From: a virus
Length of the DNA stretch: 64,000 bases
Virus record (IMG/VR): IMGVR_UViG_3300037010_001275
Location: 30,985-94,984 of that record
Direction: 5' to 3' (one strand)
The position numbers and the translations under genes were made by a program. The notes below the pieces were generated by a model that had not been told where the DNA came from, ran no database searches, and saw only the letters and a list, made by a program, of their open reading frames with translations. Within the stretch, counting starts at the first letter, position 1, and each line of letters opens with the position of its first letter. This document shows, in pieces, positions 16,176-55,062 of the stretch.

Positions 16176-18830
16176 TTAAATAATTAGATCTTCGATCATC
16201 TCAACCTGATCTGACTCGAGCGTAATACCAATCCCAGCGAAGAACGAACGAATCACCTGTGCAGCGTTGGTGATTGTGCGTTCTTCATCGTCGACCGGGT
16301 TGACGCTCTCGATGCGATCCGGGTCCATACGCAGAAGCTTCTGCAGCAGAACGCGGCGCTCCTTATTGTGCGATGAATAGTGACGGAGGAAGTTGATGAT
16401 ACCCTTCGCGCCGTCCTCCTTATTTGCCAGCAGTAGCATGTTGAAGAGCTCTTGCTCCATATGTGTTCAGAAGTGTTCGCTACACACTCCCCGGATAATA
16501 AATCCAGCTGCATGTCACCATGCAGATCAGACTATATCTTCTCTCCTTTATCGGAGAGCTCCCTATTTCCATCGCCAATGGCTTGCGATGTACTCTACTT
16601 GATTCCGCTATTACTAGCGTTCTTTCGATAGTCGTTGAACGTTCCACTGACACTTACCACGAATAATTAATTGATATATGTTTCCAAGTTTTTCTTTGCT
16701 GGATATTCCGCACTGTTTACTCTGATAATTCCATCAGATTCATATCCTGTTGGGTATTATTCACAGTCTTCCAGCAACCAGCTTATTACAGATCTCGTGA
16801 ACCTGCTTTTCTGTTGGAAGTACATTTTTGCATGCCGCGCCTCTTGGTCTTAAATTTATATCAACTACGTGCTATAAAAATTCTTAGTAGGCATAACCCA
16901 CTCCAAGTTGGATACTTCATTGCATCGTTTGATGTCATTGATGTGATTCACTTGGTAAGAATCGTCAAATATAATTCGTGATTTGTTTAGCTAAAGGCTA
17001 TCTCCATTTCTGTGGTGAGCCAGTGGCTTCGCTGCTGATTGTCTCAAAGAGAGTTTCCAGCAGTTAAAGGAGTTTTACTTCGGCAGGCAATGAACTTTTA
17101 CCGAATCGGATTGGACTGTTGTTGTACGGTGCGGTGCCCTTCTTGTACATCTCATTTGACTTAAATGGGGCGTTCAGCAGACTTACCTGACCGGCGGATC
17201 GAGCAGAGAACTTGCCGATAGCCTCATGACGAAGCTTGATGAAGTACATGGATCCAAGAACGAGCGGCTGCTCGATCCCGATGAACTTCAACTTTTTCAC
17301 GCCGAACCTGTCGTACAGCTTTAGCATCTTGACTGGGTCAGCGTTCTCGAAGAAGGGCGGCTGATGGATTAACAAGCCGTCTTCACGCACACTCCGCACG
17401 AACTCAGAGATGGCCTTGACGTCGCCATCAAGGGTTGCCTTCAAGTAGTCCGCTTGTCCGCTACCGAGGATATTGAAAAAGTCCAAGATATCATCATACA
17501 GCGCGATGTTACCTTCCTTGTCATCTGGATGCCTCTTGACAATCTGGTCGGCGATAAACGTCAGCTCATGTTCATACAGCTGCGCCACGTTCATGCGCCC
17601 GACAACGCCTAGCGGGTTCAGTACGACATCCGGGATGTCACCATCCTCGGTTCGGGGCATTTGGTCATCGGGCAGGATCTTCGAAATCACCCCCTTGTTG
17701 CCGTAACGTCCAGTGATCTTTGATCCCACTTTCAGCGGGACGGTCTCGCGGATCTTAAAGCGCAGGATTGTTCCCTCAAACTCGCTCTTATCGTAGCTGA
17801 ACTTCTTACCACAGAGGTAATCCGTCGCCTTTTGCAGCAGGAAGCCACAGTTGTCGCGGAGTGTCATCCCCTCATCTCGGAAGTATTCGATAATCTCCTT
17901 GATCTCTGTGAATAACTCCTTTCGGGTTTTCAGCAGGGCTGCGATCGGCGCGTTGTGGGGCTGCGCCAGCTCGTCATCCGACAGGTTGGAGAAGACCTCG
18001 ATCGACTCGACCACACCATTAAAGAAGAAGAGCGTATCATTAACGTAATCGATCTGGCGGTCATTCTCCTTAAAGTCTGTCAGGACTGTCGAGTAGCTGA
18101 TCCGGCGACGGGCGCACAGAATGCCATCCTTGACGTACTCACCGATTTCCGGAAAAGGTTTGTATTCGTTCCGAGTGCCATACATGTTGACCAGAACATC
18201 GTTATTGTTGAGGGATACCACGGCCTCGTGGACGGCGGTATGTGAGAGCTTCTTTGCCCCGCTCTCACTTATGATGATACCATCCTCAAACGTCAGGCCG
18301 TCCTTTGCGATGAAGGCTGCCTTCAGGTTGACGCCATAGCGCAGATTCAGGTTGTCATCGTACATCGGGTTACGAGCAAGGAGCGTTCCCTCGGGAAGGT
18401 CCGTACCAGGTTCGACATCCGGGAGCTTGTACTCGTTTAAGAAACCATACGACTCAGTAAGCCGTACACACGAATTGTACGTCACAACGTCAACCGACCC
18501 GTCCTCATAACTGAAAAACAAGTATCGCTCGTTATCACCGTACTTGACTTCACCAAGGAGCTGCGCAGGTGCTTTCAGAGAGGTATAACCCATCCCCTGT
18601 GAGAACTTTCCAACCTGATTCTCGAAGCGAGTAAACACCCTCGGGATTTCAGCGTTGTTCAGCGTGAGGAACTGCGCGACGTGTGAGATGAACATGTTAA
18701 GACGACCACCGTCGCACTTGTTCACATTCGGGGTGAGTAGGTCCTCCCCAAGGAAATAGTGTTTCGGACGGCCATCCTCACGGATAAACTTACTCGCCAC
18801 CACGGTTTTCTTAGCCTTCTTTTCCTTCAT
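16176..18830 (-). CDS. Phage RNA polymerase beta subunit, C-terminal part (two exons)
   Basis: Exon 1 is 18830-17100 (577 codons) and exon 2 is 16457-16176 (93 codons), giving a 670-residue protein. It corresponds to the C-terminal half of beta. VGSKITGRYGNKGVISKILP is the conserved beta motif near the active centre, followed by NPLGVVGRMNVAQLYE. The end of exon 1, SPIRFG, joins EQELFNMLL from exon 2 to restore the conserved RFGEMEVWAL-type motif. Exon 2 alone would look like a 94-residue orphan. Start ATG 18830 has AAGGAG. The beta N-terminal part is not in this window. Partners: beta'N at 7236 and beta'C at 45722-44343. Confidence 0.9.
16458..17099 (-). ncRNA. Group I intron in the RNA polymerase beta gene
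   Basis: 642 bases. The 5' exon ends TTCGGT; the guide GCCGAA a few bases into the intron pairs with it, with U.G at the splice site (P1). The core follows: TGCTGGAAA, then GACAATCAGCAGCGAAGC (P4-P6 region), R element GTTCAACGACTA (16641-16630) and S element AAGATATAGTCT (16540-16529) forming P7. The intron ends in G at 16458. All these features are diagnostic of a self-splicing group I intron, close to subgroup IA. It contains no intact endonuclease, only an HNH remnant. Confidence 0.93.
16865..16990 (-). pseudogene. Remnant of an HNH homing endonuclease inside the intron
   Basis: A 41-codon open stretch without a start codon reads FDDSYQVNHINDIKRCNEVS then NLEWVMPTKNFYST. This is the HNH core of intron endonucleases (VNHIDGNKSNNxVxNLEWVT). 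The usual N-terminal part and the C-terminal DNA-binding part are missing, and stops flank it. It shows that the intron once carried its own mobility gene and lost it. Confidence 0.8.
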
Positions 18831-19134
18831 CAGGGCTCCTTTCAAAATAATACACACTCTGCGTATGCAGTACTGGCATTTTCTCGTGCGTTTTTATAAA
18901 TGTGAATGTTGGCGTATAAAAGCATGGCTCGTCACCAACACGTAAGCCAGTGCTCTTTCGCCAAGCCACAATCTTACGTTTGCGGATGGATGATGTACAG
19001 GCAATGATGTTATGGACCGGATATTGGGCAGTGTAGAAAAGCGTCTTCGTCTGCCTGATGACCGGGAGTACATAGGTAGTTATGTTCTCGGACGCCCTTC
19101 TGTTGGGATACAGTTCTCTGACTTCTAGATACAT
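18811..19134 (-). CDS. Hypothetical protein, 107 residues
   Basis: Basic protein starting MYLEVRELYPNRRASEN, with ATG 19134 preceded by GGGAG at seven bases. It overlaps the start of the beta gene by 20 bases, so the two are probably coupled. No motif recognised. A hairpin at about 19144-19171 (GGTGCG/CGCACC core) separates it from the recA-like gene upstream. An in-frame ATG at 19179 lies within that hairpin and is less likely. Confidence 0.6.
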   Translation of the reverse strand: MYLEVRELYPNRRASENITTYVLPVIRQTKTLFYTAQYPVHNIIACTSSIRKRKIVAWRKSTGLRVGDEPCFYTPTFTFIKTHEKMPVLHTQSVYYFERSPDEGKEG

Positions 19135-48958: not shown

Positions 48959-49029
48959 AGGTCCTACTCGGAATCGAACCAAGATTTACGCATTATAAGT
49001 GCGATGCTCGACCTTCGAGCTATAAGAGC
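48959..49029 (-). tRNA. tRNA-Ile (anticodon UAU)
   Basis: Cloverleaf with D stem GCTC/GAGC, anticodon loop CTTATAA (anticodon TAT, reading AUA) on a CGCA/TGCG stem, and T arm CTTGG-TTCGATT-CCGAG. The acceptor GCTCTTA/TAGGACC has one C.C mismatch. CCA is not encoded. The rare AUA-reading tRNA is a common phage-carried species. Confidence 0.8.
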
Positions 49030-49044
49030 AGCTGCTAGTATTTC

Positions 49045-49120
49045 TGGTACAGCATACGAGATTCGAACTCGTGTGACCTGCGTGAAAGACAGGTATCCTA
49101 GACCACTAGATGAACGCTGC
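49045..49120 (-). tRNA. tRNA-Glu (anticodon UUC)
   Basis: Acceptor GCAGCGT/ATGCTGT with two G.U pairs, D stem ATC/GAT, anticodon loop CTTTCAC on CCTGT/GCAGG, T arm ACGAG-TTCGAAT-CTCGT, and encoded ACCA end. Confidence 0.9.
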
Positions 49121-49127
49121 AAGAAAA

Positions 49128-49217
49128 TGGCGGAGAAGGCGAGATTCGAACTCGCGACAAGGTTGCCCCTGTGCCACCTTTCCAGGGTGGTGACTTAAAC
49201 CGCTCATCCACCTCTCC
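49128..49217 (-). tRNA. tRNA-Ser (anticodon GGA)
   Basis: Acceptor GGAGAGG/CTTCTCC, anticodon loop CTGGAAA on a CACC/GGTG stem, long variable arm, T arm with GTTCGAATC, and encoded GCCA end. The long variable arm fits serine. Confidence 0.9.
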
Positions 49218-50329: not shown

Positions 50330-51010
50330 TTAAGAACATTTCGAATCACCACAGCTGAGACAGGTCATACAGTTGTCCATCGGGATCATTGCCTTAGTCT
50401 GGCAGGACGGGCAGACGACGGCGTTCTTCGGGTAGCCGGTGTGGTTGTCGTTCGTGTCGCCGGTCTTGGCGATGTACTCTTCCCTCTTATTCTTTAGATA
50501 CTCGACAACGAACTCGTCATGCTGCACGGTCTCAATGATGCCAAGGCTCTTAAAGTGCTCGCGAATCGCGAATAGACTGATTTCAGCAACCAATGACGGG
50601 ACGTGACGACCGCCTTTGGCGATGTAGCCGCTGCCGCCGGGGGTCATGATGCACTCGAGCTCCTCGAGGATGAACTTAAGGTCACCGCCGCGACGGAAAC
50701 AGGCTGAGATCATCCGGGTCAGCGCGGTAATCCACTCGTAGTGTGTGGAGTCTTTGCTGTAGACGAAGATTTCAAAGGGCTGGCGGGAGCCGTCATCATT
50801 GATGATGTCATTGATTGTCACGTACATCGCTGCCTTTGCCAGCGGGCTCTTCAGCTTATATGTGACACCGGCAAGGCGCTCAGGGCGCTTGATCTCGCCG
50901 ACGGTTGGCTTGACGACTTCGACCTTCGCCTCAATCTGCTCCGCCTTCTTATCGATGACCTTGTAACCGACGATCTTGCCGGTGATTTGCACGGTTTGAT
51001 TTTCGTTCAT
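50330..51010 (-). CDS. TSCPD-domain protein, detached C-terminal part of class II ribonucleotide reductase
   Basis: 226 residues. KRPERLAGVTYKLKSPLAKA, then AAMYVTINDI, PFEIFVYSKDSTHYEWITAL, TRMISACFRRGGDLKFILEE is the TSCPD domain usually fused to the C-terminus of NrdJ. The end VCPSCQTKAMIPMDNCMTCL-SCG has the CxxC pairs that relay electrons or bind zinc. Here it is a separate gene in the nrdJ operon, so it probably works in trans with the 707-residue catalytic protein. GAGGA precedes ATG 51010. Confidence 0.85.
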   Translation of the reverse strand: MNENQTVQITGKIVGYKVIDKKAEQIEAKVEVVKPTVGEIKRPERLAGVTYKLKSPLAKAAMYVTINDIINDDGSRQPFEIFVYSKDSTHYEWITALTRMISACFRRGGDLKFILEELECIMTPGGSGYIAKGGRHVPSLVAEISLFAIREHFKSLGIIETVQHDEFVVEYLKNKREEYIAKTGDTNDNHTGYPKNAVVCPSCQTKAMIPMDNCMTCLSCGDSKCS

Positions 51011-51020
51011 GAATTCCTCG

Positions 51021-51377
51021 TTAAAGAATGTTGTTGACGAAGCGGCAAAACAGATCCTCGACATCGAGGATCTCTCCCATGTATTCCACCTTGCGCTTCG
51101 GGTATAGAATGTACTGGTCGTAGCGAGACCGAACAATGATCTTGTACGGGATCTCTCTATCCTCGTTGTGGTTCAACGAGTCATGCTCGCTGATGCGGAC
51201 AAGCTCGACGGCCTCCAGCTCGTTGTTGATTTTCTTTGGAGCATCGATGTCGAGCCGATGATAGTACCCACTACCACGCTGAGCATGTTTCTTAGTTGCT
51301 TCTTGGTCAGTTGATTCCAAACTTTTCTCCTGAGATGAAGGGAGGCGGGTGAACCCGCCTCTCTGACACTTGAGCAT
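51021..51377 (-). CDS. Hypothetical protein between nrdJ and its TSCPD gene
   Basis: 118 residues if started at the ATG that overlaps the nrdJ stop (TGATG). A TTG at 51320 is preceded by an ideal AGGAG and would give 99 residues starting ESTDQEATKK. The stretch it would drop contains a strong hairpin (GAGGCGGGT / ACCCGCCTC, 51342-51361), which favours the later start. The body (IPYKIIVRSRYDQYILYPKR) is strand-rich. No family recognised. Confidence 0.6.
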   Translation of the reverse strand: MLKCQRGGFTRLPSSQEKSLESTDQEATKKHAQRGSGYYHRLDIDAPKKINNELEAVELVRISEHDSLNHNEDREIPYKIIVRSRYDQYILYPKRKVEYMGEILDVEDLFCRFVNNIL

Positions 51378-54300
51378 CAGAACTTGCCGTAATATCCTTC
51401 CTTGAGGGCCTCAAATAAATTCGCGGCAGTAGCGACGTTGCCGTCGTACTCCACATTGTCGCTGCCCCGTAGACGGAAGGTCTGGCCGTCCTCAGTCGTG
51501 AATTCGTACTCGGTGGCGTCAAGATCTTCCTTCTTGACCAAAACGCCCTGGAACGCTTCAGGGTTAAATCTGAACGTTGTGCAGCCCTTTAGGCCGCTGT
51601 CGTATGCTGCCATGTAGATGTCTTGAAATTGCTCGAACGAGTAGTCTGTCGGGACATTGATCGTCTTACTGATAGAGGAATCGATCCACTTTTGAGCGGC
51701 GGCCTGTACCTTGACATGATCGAATGGATCAATATCGTCGGCGGCACCCCACTCTGGGCGCTCACGCAGTTCTGCGAGCAGCTTGTCGTCATCGATTGGA
51801 TCTATGATGATCTTCCCGTCAGTAAGGGCACCGGAGGCGTACAGCTCGCGGTACAACATGTACTCGTAGGAGTACACGGACTTCTGGACCTTCGTCTTTT
51901 CACCCGTAACGATGACATTGCGCAGGTAGAAGTGCGAGAAAGACGGCTCGATACCGTTGGAGGCGTTGTTACCGAACGACAAAGCAAGTGTGCCAGTCGG
52001 GGCGATCGATGTGGCATGCGAGAAACGGGAACCATGAACGGAGATTTCACGCAGCAGATCAGCCAGCTCCTCATCATTCCACCAGTCTTTGAAATAGCTA
52101 GACATCACGAAGAGCTTGGAACCCTTTATGGTTTCTCCAAGTTGCACTTTGCCATGCTCGACAGCGAGACGCAGCGACTCGTTCCTAGCGGTCAGTTCCT
52201 CGGTCACGACAAAGTCCTCGGAGAATACTGGGGCAGCGCCACGCTTCTTGGCTAAATCAAGGCCGGTGCGGAAATTGTTGATGGCAAGAGCGCGGGTGAT
52301 CTTATCCGTCAGGTTAACGGAAGCGTCGGAGCCGTAGCGGACGCCGAGCATGATCATCGCGGAGCCAAGGCCGAGGTAGCCCATACCGTGACGGCGCTTG
52401 CGATGAATCTCATCACGCTGTTCCTCGAGCGGCAGGCCATTGATTTCAACGACGTTATCCAGCATCCGAGCGAACAATTGAACATTCTTCTCGAACGCCT
52501 CAAAGTCGAAGTAAGCGTCAGGCGTGAACGGATTGCGAACGTAATATGTCAGGTTCACGGATCCGAGCAGACAGGATCCATTAGGCGGTAACACTAAATC
52601 CAGACAGTTTCCCGTCCAGGTGGATTATATCTTAGCGGGGTCGCCGCTGCTTCCGTTTGCTAGTACTTCATTGCGTTTGATGGGTATACCGAGCGGGCAA
52701 GGGGAAGAACACTCCTTGCCACACAGATTAAAGGTTGCCAAAGCGGCACTCCAGTAAACCTGTAGACAGCACTTGTAATGCATTGACTTTGGAATTAGGT
52801 CCTTGAAGGGAACTACGAATTTGGAGAGGAAAAGCGTCACCTGTTCCATGCTCTGTAATGCCAAGCGGTAACTCACATTCCCCAGAAACTTATCGTACCC
52901 AAAGCCGTGAGACATTATTTTCTTTATGATGAAGGAGATTCCCCACCTTTCTCGAAACAGTTCTACCAACAGTTCGTTCTCATCTAAAGTAAAATTATCT
53001 GTGCAAAGTTCGATTGTGTTATTACGAAATCTATCTTTTTTATTTATAGGTAACGTCCCGTCGTCGAGAAACCAAAGGAAGACAGACTCCTCCGACATCT
53101 TATCAAACCATTCTTTTTTCACAATCTTTCTGCCATTTGAGTCGAGCATCAGTTCCTTCAACCGGTCAAAATACTTAGAAGAGAGAAACGATGACGAATA
53201 GACATTAGTGAAGAATGTCTTCCCTGATGTATGATTGATCCTTCTCGGCTTTATAGCTTCCGGGCCGGGGCTTTGTGGAAAGATAGCATTCAAAAGACGC
53301 ACCTTCAATGTCAGATAGTCTAGATTGTCGTTTTTATGTTCGAGCTTTATGCGTGGCGATCGACCATCGATATGACCGTTACCGAGTACCATCCCAATCA
53401 GGATTGCAATGTTTGCGTCTCGGTCGTTAGTCTTTTCAACACCGCAGTGCTTTGCCATTACTACCACTCTCATTTCGTGATACGTTCTGACCCCATACTT
53501 AGCGTAAATCAGCTCTCGACGACTTTGACCAATGCGAAACGCCCGGTAGAACGATTCTTGTGTTGGGTGGTTGATCACCGCCGATTCTATCTTTTCCATC
53601 GAAAGAAAAGTTTCATCTAAATAGTCATGAAATCTCATGCCATATAAACGTTTGAAGAGATTACTGAACGAGGCAGAGTCAATACTCTTAAATTCTAAAC
53701 AAAATTCTCGACATAACGACGCTTCAAGATCCTGAATATTTGTGGTAGACGCTAAACGTTCATCTATGAATTTCCGGTACAAAGAGTCTTTTAGATCGTT
53801 CAGACCAAACCCAAATAGGCTTTTAAGCTCTCTTTTCCTTAGATGTTCGAAATCCATCTGCAGCTTTTCAGCTATTTCCTTCAGACCGTCTCCTTCTTTA
53901 ATGAAAGAGATGATTTTTTCTTTGGTATCCATCATTATCCTCTCGCACACGCGATACTGAAAAAGTACTATTTAATCTCTGAACGTTCCTCTATTTGAGG
54001 CTTCGCTGCTGATTGCCCAATCCAACCCGTTCTCTAGCATTCGCGCTTAGGCTTATTTCATCCTTACGCTGTAGCCGGGGAGGCTCTAAGGGGTTTCCAG
54101 CAATTAGAAAGCTTTATACAGCCCTTACTTCACCAAACTATGAAGAATTTTTAAGGCTGTTCACCGCAGGGGTTCGTCGCACGGATGTTCTCGCAGAACC
54201 AGAGATTGTTCATGTGGTTGATTGCGTCAATCAGCAGAAAACCCGGCTCGGCAAAGTCGTAGGTTGACTTCATGATAATGGACCACAGCTCGCGAGCTGG

Positions 54301-55062
54301 CATCTTCTTGTCTTCGAACGGCAAGCCGTTCCACATGAAATGCCACATCTCGTCGTTCTTGACCGCCTCCATGAAGGCATTCGTGATCAAAATCGAGATG
54401 TTAAATTGACGCAGGCGGCCATCCTCACGCTTCGCCTTGATGACGTCCACGACGTCCGGGTGAGAGATATCAAAGGTAAACATCTGCGCACCACGACGGC
54501 CTCCAGCAGAGGACACTGTAAAACAAGCCTTATCGAAGACATCGGCAAAGGCCAACGGACCGTTCGTGTACGCACCAACACCGTTGACGTGAGCACCCTT
54601 CGGACGGATCGACGAGAACTCGTATCCAATACCACAGCCGTACTTCAGCGTGATCGCAGCCTTATACAACGACCCAAAGATGCCCTCCATTGAGTCTTGG
54701 ATTGTCTCGGACACAGTGCAGTTGATGGTTGACGTCTTCGGTTTGTGAGCACTGGCCCCGGCGTTCGACATGATTCGACCGGCGGGCCAGCATCCGCCGT
54801 CATGCATGGCATTATAGTACTCGGAAGCGATACGGTCGATCGTTGCATCTTGCTCATGCGCCGCATACTCGCCGCTCTTCACGCCAGTCTCGAACTCGGC
54901 CTCAGCGAGGGCTCGAGAGACGCGCTTGTAAGTGTCCGACACAGAGCCATCGATTGGCTCCTTCGTTTTGCTGTGTTTCAGGCAGTATTTGCTCTCCCAG
55001 ATTTCTTGGGAGGTCTCCTGTAGGGGCAGGATTACGACTTTCTGTTCAGTTTGTTGGATCAT
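51377..55062 (-). CDS. Class II (B12-dependent) ribonucleotide reductase, catalytic part, two exons
   Basis: Exon 1 is 55062-54154 (303 codons), exon 2 is 52591-51377 (404 codons plus stop): 707 residues. Reduces ribonucleotides for phage DNA synthesis. STINCTVSETIQDSMEGIF, KYGCGIGYEFSSIRPKGAHV, SSAGGRRGAQMFTFDISHPD and ATNPCGEQP-LPPNGSCLLG are NrdJ signatures, the last restored only by joining the exons. GTLALSFGNNASNGIEP is the later conserved block. The C-terminal TSCPD region is a separate gene at 51010. No nrdB-like small subunit is present, which agrees with class II. GGAG precedes ATG 55062. Confidence 0.93.
52592..54153 (-). ncRNA. Group I intron in the nrdJ gene
   Basis: 1562 bases, inserted after CAGCCT of the NPCGEQP codons. 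The guide GGGCTG pairs with CAGCCT, with U.G at the splice site. Core: AATTGCTGGAAA, GGGCAATCAGCAGCGAAGC (shared with the intron in the beta gene), R element GTTCAGAGATTA (53984-53973), S element AAGATATAATCC (52633-52622). It ends in G at 52592. An endonuclease gene lies between R and S, in the P8 region. Confidence 0.93.
52625..53932 (-). CDS. LAGLIDADG homing endonuclease of the nrdJ intron
   Basis: About 435 residues. The N-terminal 170 residues are helical and carry repeated helix-turn-helix-like segments (GLKEIAEKLQMDFEHLRKRE). The C-terminal half has IAILIGMVLGNGHIDGRSP and FLWFLDDGTLPINKKDRFRN with ELCTDNFTLDENELLVELF, the two-motif layout of LAGLIDADG type 2 enzymes. It would cut intron-less nrdJ and spread the intron. 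The last codons (AKI and stop) are part of the S element of the intron core. AGAGG lies six bases before ATG 53932. Confidence 0.85.
   Translation of the reverse strand: MDTKEKIISFIKEGDGLKEIAEKLQMDFEHLRKRELKSLFGFGLNDLKDSLYRKFIDERLASTTNIQDLEASLCREFCLEFKSIDSASFSNLFKRLYGMRFHDYLDETFLSMEKIESAVINHPTQESFYRAFRIGQSRRELIYAKYGVRTYHEMRVVVMAKHCGVEKTNDRDANIAILIGMVLGNGHIDGRSPRIKLEHKNDNLDYLTLKVRLLNAIFPQSPGPEAIKPRRINHTSGKTFFTNVYSSSFLSSKYFDRLKELMLDSNGRKIVKKEWFDKMSEESVFLWFLDDGTLPINKKDRFRNNTIELCTDNFTLDENELLVELFRERWGISFIIKKIMSHGFGYDKFLGNVSYRLALQSMEQVTLFLSKFVVPFKDLIPKSMHYKCCLQVYWSAALATFNLCGKECSSPCPLGIPIKRNEVLANGSSGDPAKI

Follow-up and report, generated by a model that had tools for sequence, protein, structure and literature searches.

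How a reading frame comes to end inside the core of a ribozyme, and whether protein and RNA then depend on each other, is the question raised by an intron in nrdJ, the class II ribonucleotide reductase (RNR) gene of a virus. The window analysed here is a 64,000-nt stretch of a 95-kb linear virus record from a metagenomic assembly. We found that the locus is very probably best described as a phage IA2-type nrdJ intron, with an ORF of I-SceI fold in a P7.1-type loop that has undergone core creep up to a stop codon in the S element. The elements of this reading are as follows.

54154-55062, minus strand: nrdJ exon 1, ending ...NPCGEQP (Pfam, NCBIfam; NrdJ_Z profile up to position 286)
52592-54153, minus strand: group I intron (IA2-like), 1562 nt, first base 54153, terminal G 52592 (P1/P10, spliced NrdJ continuity, Rfam RF00028)
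54119-54128, minus strand: internal guide sequence GUAAGGGCUG, with GGGCUG/exon CAGCCU as P1 and GUAA/3' exon UUAC as P10
54107-54112, minus strand: P3 5' strand GCUUUC, placed in register by comparison with ORF-less relatives (29 of 31)
54005-54103, minus strand: P4-P6 domain, from UUGCUGG (54103-54097) to the Q element AAUCAGCAGC (54014-54005)
53973-53984, minus strand: R element GTTCAGAGATTA, with the P7 5' strand GAUUA at 53977-53973
53960-53970, minus strand: P7.1 5' strand UAGUACUU (53970-53963), opening the loop that encloses the ORF
52625-53935, minus strand: LAGLIDADG ORF, 436 aa, from ATG 53935 (or ATG 53932) (Pfam, Foldseek)
53375-53386, minus strand: first LAGLIDADG motif, L-G-N-G, with the catalytic Asp replaced by Asn at residue 186 (alignment to I-SceI IGLILGDAYI)
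52625-52668, minus strand: ORF 3' end within the ribozyme, with the P7.1 3' strand AAGUACUA at 52668-52661
52649-52654, minus strand: P3 3' strand GGAAGC, within the ORF end
52634-52648, minus strand: P8 hairpin AGCGG-CGACC-CCGCU, within the ORF end, followed by J8/7 and the start of the P7 3' strand
52622-52633, minus strand: S element AAGATATAATCC, holding the stop UAA (52627-52625) and the P7 3' strand UAAUC (52627-52623)
51377-52591, minus strand: nrdJ exon 2, beginning LPPNGS... (NrdJ_Z profile from position 286; spliced-protein alignment)

The 5' exon end CAGCCU (54159-54154) and GGGCUG (54124-54119) form P1 with a U-G pair at the splice site, P10 can be read from the sequence between the 3' exon start and the GUAA directly 5' of the guide, and the core carries conserved P3, P4-P6, P7 and P8 with P, Q, R and S elements. 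The insertion point lies directly 3' of the NrdJ active-site motif, and the first intron codon in the exon 1 frame is TAA. When the intron was removed in silico, exact ligation gave NPCGEQP|LPPNGS, as in intronless phage NrdJ; the frame stayed open (NPCGEQPLPPNGSCLLGS here versus NPCGEQPLPPYGSCNLGS in the uninterrupted NrdJ of Thermus phage TMA), and the NrdJ_Z profile, which ends at 286 in exon 1, picked up again at 286 in exon 2. The spliced protein of 707 aa was 39% identical to Thermus phage TMA RNR over its full length (E 3e-175). Judged on its sequence, such group I anatomy is not a product of chance. These results bear out the preliminary description, which had proposed a group I intron at this place in nrdJ, together with its guide pairing and its R and S elements. 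A scan of viral contigs with the nrdJ exon returned one weak relative only and no empty-site allele of this phage. A separate ORF in the window (50330-51136, minus strand) corresponds to the C-terminal portion of vitamin B12-dependent RNR; nrdJ is therefore split 3' of the intron-bearing gene, much as in Thermus phage TMA, where the two genes have 798 and 199 codons.

The Rfam group I model (RF00028) matched the 5' half of the intron only and below its curated cutoff (E 4.8e-7 in 2 kb, 1.5e-5 in the window), as is expected because the ORF interrupts the core. Introns of ICP1, SP-15, Twort and others aligned to 46-65% of this half with 69-78% identity. Subgroup IA2 is distinguished by P7.1 and P7.2 helices between P7(5') and P3(3'). 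Here a single 8-bp P7.1-like helix encloses the ORF and a separate P7.2 was not found in the intron, while the 5' half is nearest to IA2-type phage introns. The intron shares with these (Twort, SP-15, ICP1, Haymo and others) P1, the P3-P9 core, R and S, an in-frame stop at the intron start and the 5'-half similarity. It differs from them in the reduction of P7.1/P7.2 to one helix with the ORF in its loop, and in its LAGLIDADG protein, where HNH and GIY-YIG enzymes predominate in phage introns.

The ORF, which is preceded by an AGAGG Shine-Dalgarno-like sequence, matched Pfam LAGLIDADG_2 (E 4.4e-20). Its predicted structure retrieved I-WcaI/I-SceI in Foldseek (E about 3e-11, TM (target) 0.71-0.72), and two LAGLIDADG motifs were found in a single-chain fold common to these enzymes (TM to target 0.71-0.74), to which the protein adds a long N-terminal helical region and a C-terminal tail. 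The LAGLIDADG type had been recognized in the preliminary description, and the structure-based search it proposed thus recovered a fold; the description had missed an Asp-to-Asn substitution in the first motif. This residue, Asp44 of I-SceI, is Asp in nearly all homologues and Asn here and in one of them (L023), whereas DDG of the second motif is intact. We therefore classed the product as a homologue and not as an active endonuclease. Double-strand cleavage may have been lost and present-day cleavage is doubtful; at the other catalytic Asp of I-SceI, D145A abolishes cleavage (PMC3928301). It is also possible that the Asn codon reflects a single-base error of metagenomic assembly.

The position of the ORF relative to the core was established by comparison with 31 distinct ORF-less phage introns collected by a conserved P4 pattern. 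In 29 of them six bases between R and S could pair with the P3 5' strand, in sequences that differed between introns; they typically lay 18-39 nt 5' of the S core and followed a stretch resembling GAA(A/G)(Y). GGAAGC in the window occupies the same register, 23 nt upstream of the S core, with AAAC before it and the P8 hairpin and S after it. Since P3(3'), P8 and S come after the body of the ORF, these signatures place the ORF between P7(5') and P3(3'), in a P7.1-type peripheral loop. UAGUACUU and AAGUACUA are perfect complements over 8 bp, with a chance probability of about 0.0014 for the placed 13- and 22-nt windows and 0.02 for looser 40-nt windows; P7.1 is a single helix read in one intron, supported by complementarity and not by covariation.

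An ORF in L8, with P3(3') upstream of it (for example AGAGG, 53945-53941), would be the usual arrangement. In sampled introns with a long R-to-S insertion and a placeable P3(3'), this strand lies near R, so that their ORFs, which are most of the R-to-S ORFs in the sample, are in L8, and the Rfam alignment also puts P3 near the start codon. Nearly all relatives nevertheless share the register that GGAAGC fits, and the upstream alternative gives fewer and weaker pairs and leaves P8 without a partner, making an L8 location very unlikely. In the same survey one intron (L078) was ambiguous, two (L052 and L094) had short insertions on the P7.1 side, and an ORF in P7.1 was not seen in the sampled phage introns; to these the window intron adds a LAGLIDADG case. 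A model with P7.1 and P7.2 as two short hairpins 5' of the start codon and P3(3') over the Shine-Dalgarno sequence was dropped on comparison with relatives.

With the ORF in the P7.1-type loop, its 3' end is also ribozyme. The last codons are GCT AAG ATA TAA, with the stop inside S and its UAA paired in P7 with UUA of R, and the last ~15 codons together with the stop encode P7.1(3'), P3(3'), P8, J8/7 and part of P7(3'). P7 itself is GAUUA/UAAUC, compared with the usual phage GACUA/UAGUC: the change is two-sided and falls within the stop codon, and both pairing and stop are preserved. The preliminary description was right that the endonuclease stop forms part of the core and that AAG ATA TAA belongs to S; it counted three codons and a stop where there are two sense codons and a stop, and it understated the overlap, in which P7.1(3'), P3(3') and P8 are coding as well.

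The closest endonucleases were found in nrdJ introns of the crAss-like phages PhiCrAssBcn18 and cr108_1 and of an IMG/VR locus, L018. Two crAss-like phage introns with a LAGLIDADG ORF are located as follows.

L003, 2874-4001: crAss-like phage nrdJ intron with LAGLIDADG ORF
L004, 2793-3896: crAss-like phage nrdJ intron with LAGLIDADG ORF

The introns of the two phages and L018 share with the window a class II RNR host gene, the NPCGE site, homologous N-terminal regions and LAGLIDADG domains, and an ORF end in S or J8/7. They differ in being inserted after NPCG, 9 nt upstream of the window site, in having P3(3') directly after R, no P7.1/P7.2 and the ORF in L8, and in their short C-terminus and intact catalytic Asp. 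The four nrdJ endonucleases clustered in a tree with moderate support, in a cluster that also includes a long-branch sequence, and a common origin is likely. If a single lineage of endonucleases did enter two unlike ribozymes at adjacent positions of the gene, the comparison suggests that the stop in S was reached independently. The pair thus offers a clean test case for core creep, with a long tail in one endonuclease and almost none in the other. The PhiCrAssBcn18 ORF carries the annotation 'DNA polymerase III subunit gamma/tau', which is apparently wrong. Two further homologues (L047 and L048, archaeal MAG) end ..VAYN and ..ATHN and resemble intein C-termini.

An upstream stop in related introns, which the preliminary description regarded as contrary to its reading, was found in part. 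The ORFs of PhiCrAssBcn18 and cr108_1 end K-I-TAG inside S, that of L018 has its stop, TGA, in J8/7 just ahead of P7(3'), and most endonuclease homologues end a few residues past a conserved P-E-C-M-K/H-Y-K, beyond which the window protein runs on for about 45 residues. In the AlphaFold model, based on a shallow alignment of 15 sequences, pLDDT was below 50 (33-40) for the last 40 residues versus 80-98 for most of the core. GC content was 53% in the last 42 codons versus 41% in the rest of the ORF, and the tail region showed no unusual local RNA folding (z -0.76). Because the tail is not present in most homologues and is predicted to be disordered, the RNA probably constrains the protein more than the reverse. 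The protein probably tolerates the overlapping tail without needing it. The earlier proposal that protein and ribozyme constrain each other is thus likely to hold mostly in one direction. Two homologues (L022 and L028) have longer, cysteine-rich C-terminal tails, indicating that tails in this family can be functional domains and are not always inert. Scans of viral contigs seeded with the ORF and with the nrdJ exon found no close relative of the intron, and the protein-seeded scan with the ORF alone found no relative.

An ORF end in core helices, in an extension missing from homologues, is what has been named core creep by Edgell, Chalamcharla and Belfort, who tabulated T4 td and others (PMC3073962). 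The overlap seen here is therefore of an already described kind that is known in other phage introns. In T4 td/I-TevI and other cases in Table 1 of that work, the ORF 3' end likewise contributes core helices including P7; td differs in its GIY-YIG enzyme, its ORF in the P6 loop and its overlap of 20 nt, compared with about 44 nt of named core plus P7.1 in the window. The Synechococcus lividus LSU overlap (81 nt, LAGLIDADG, P8; PMC3073962) is at least as extensive as that of the window. In a sample of 17 phage introns whose S was assigned and whose ORF had 80 aa or more (L118 was excluded, its S being misassigned), the ORF ends at J8/7 beside S in 6, continues beyond S in 6 and ends earlier in the other 5, counts that are not independent, several in a group of six being near-copies. 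ORFs thus reach into or past S in 12 of the 17, a frequency that the preliminary description, correct on the overlap itself, had missed along with its published name. When the DNA pattern ...MKYK with S after it was searched for, most matches were coding sequence hit by chance, and no new set of introns of any use emerged.

According to the core-creep reading, an endonuclease gene akin to those of the crAss-like phage nrdJ introns would have been gained as a homing enzyme against the conserved NPCGE codons. Its reading frame would then have been extended through P3(3'), P8 and J8/7 up to the stop that S happens to contain, and the folded intron RNA would excise itself with guanosine, restoring the NrdJ active-site motif.

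The overlap might instead be under selection, with ribosomes terminating in P7, or the tail acting as a maturase, regulating folding and splicing. The stop does lie in the helix that binds guanosine, related endonucleases that sit in another ribozyme and another loop end at that position too, the two-sided change in P7 kept pairing and stop together, loss of the catalytic Asp would suit a maturase, and deregulated translation of I-TevI disturbs td splicing (PMC3073962). Stops in the sampled introns are, however, spread from -316 to +66 around S, the pattern that drift to the next stop would give. One of the three frames of AAG-ATA-TAG contains a stop at no cost, the tail is predicted to lack structure and a maturase role is hypothetical, and we consider such coupling improbable. 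A narrower form, in which Asp loss and the very deep overlap mean that the protein, with its ORF in P7.1, is now kept for aiding ribozyme folding (maturase-like or through translation-coupled splicing), appears slightly less probable again.

Elsewhere in the window, a further group I intron was found at 16508-17100 (minus strand; Rfam E 7e-4, below cutoff) in an RNA polymerase beta-subunit gene (17064-18857 and 16460-16176), with no ORF of at least 90 aa inside it. The beta subunit (17064-18857, minus strand) most resembles those of Yersinia phage phiR1-37 (44%) and Bacillus PBS1/AR9 (38%), which points to the contig being part of a jumbo phage genome that encodes a multisubunit RNA polymerase. 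Three tRNA genes are clustered at 48959-49217 (minus strand).
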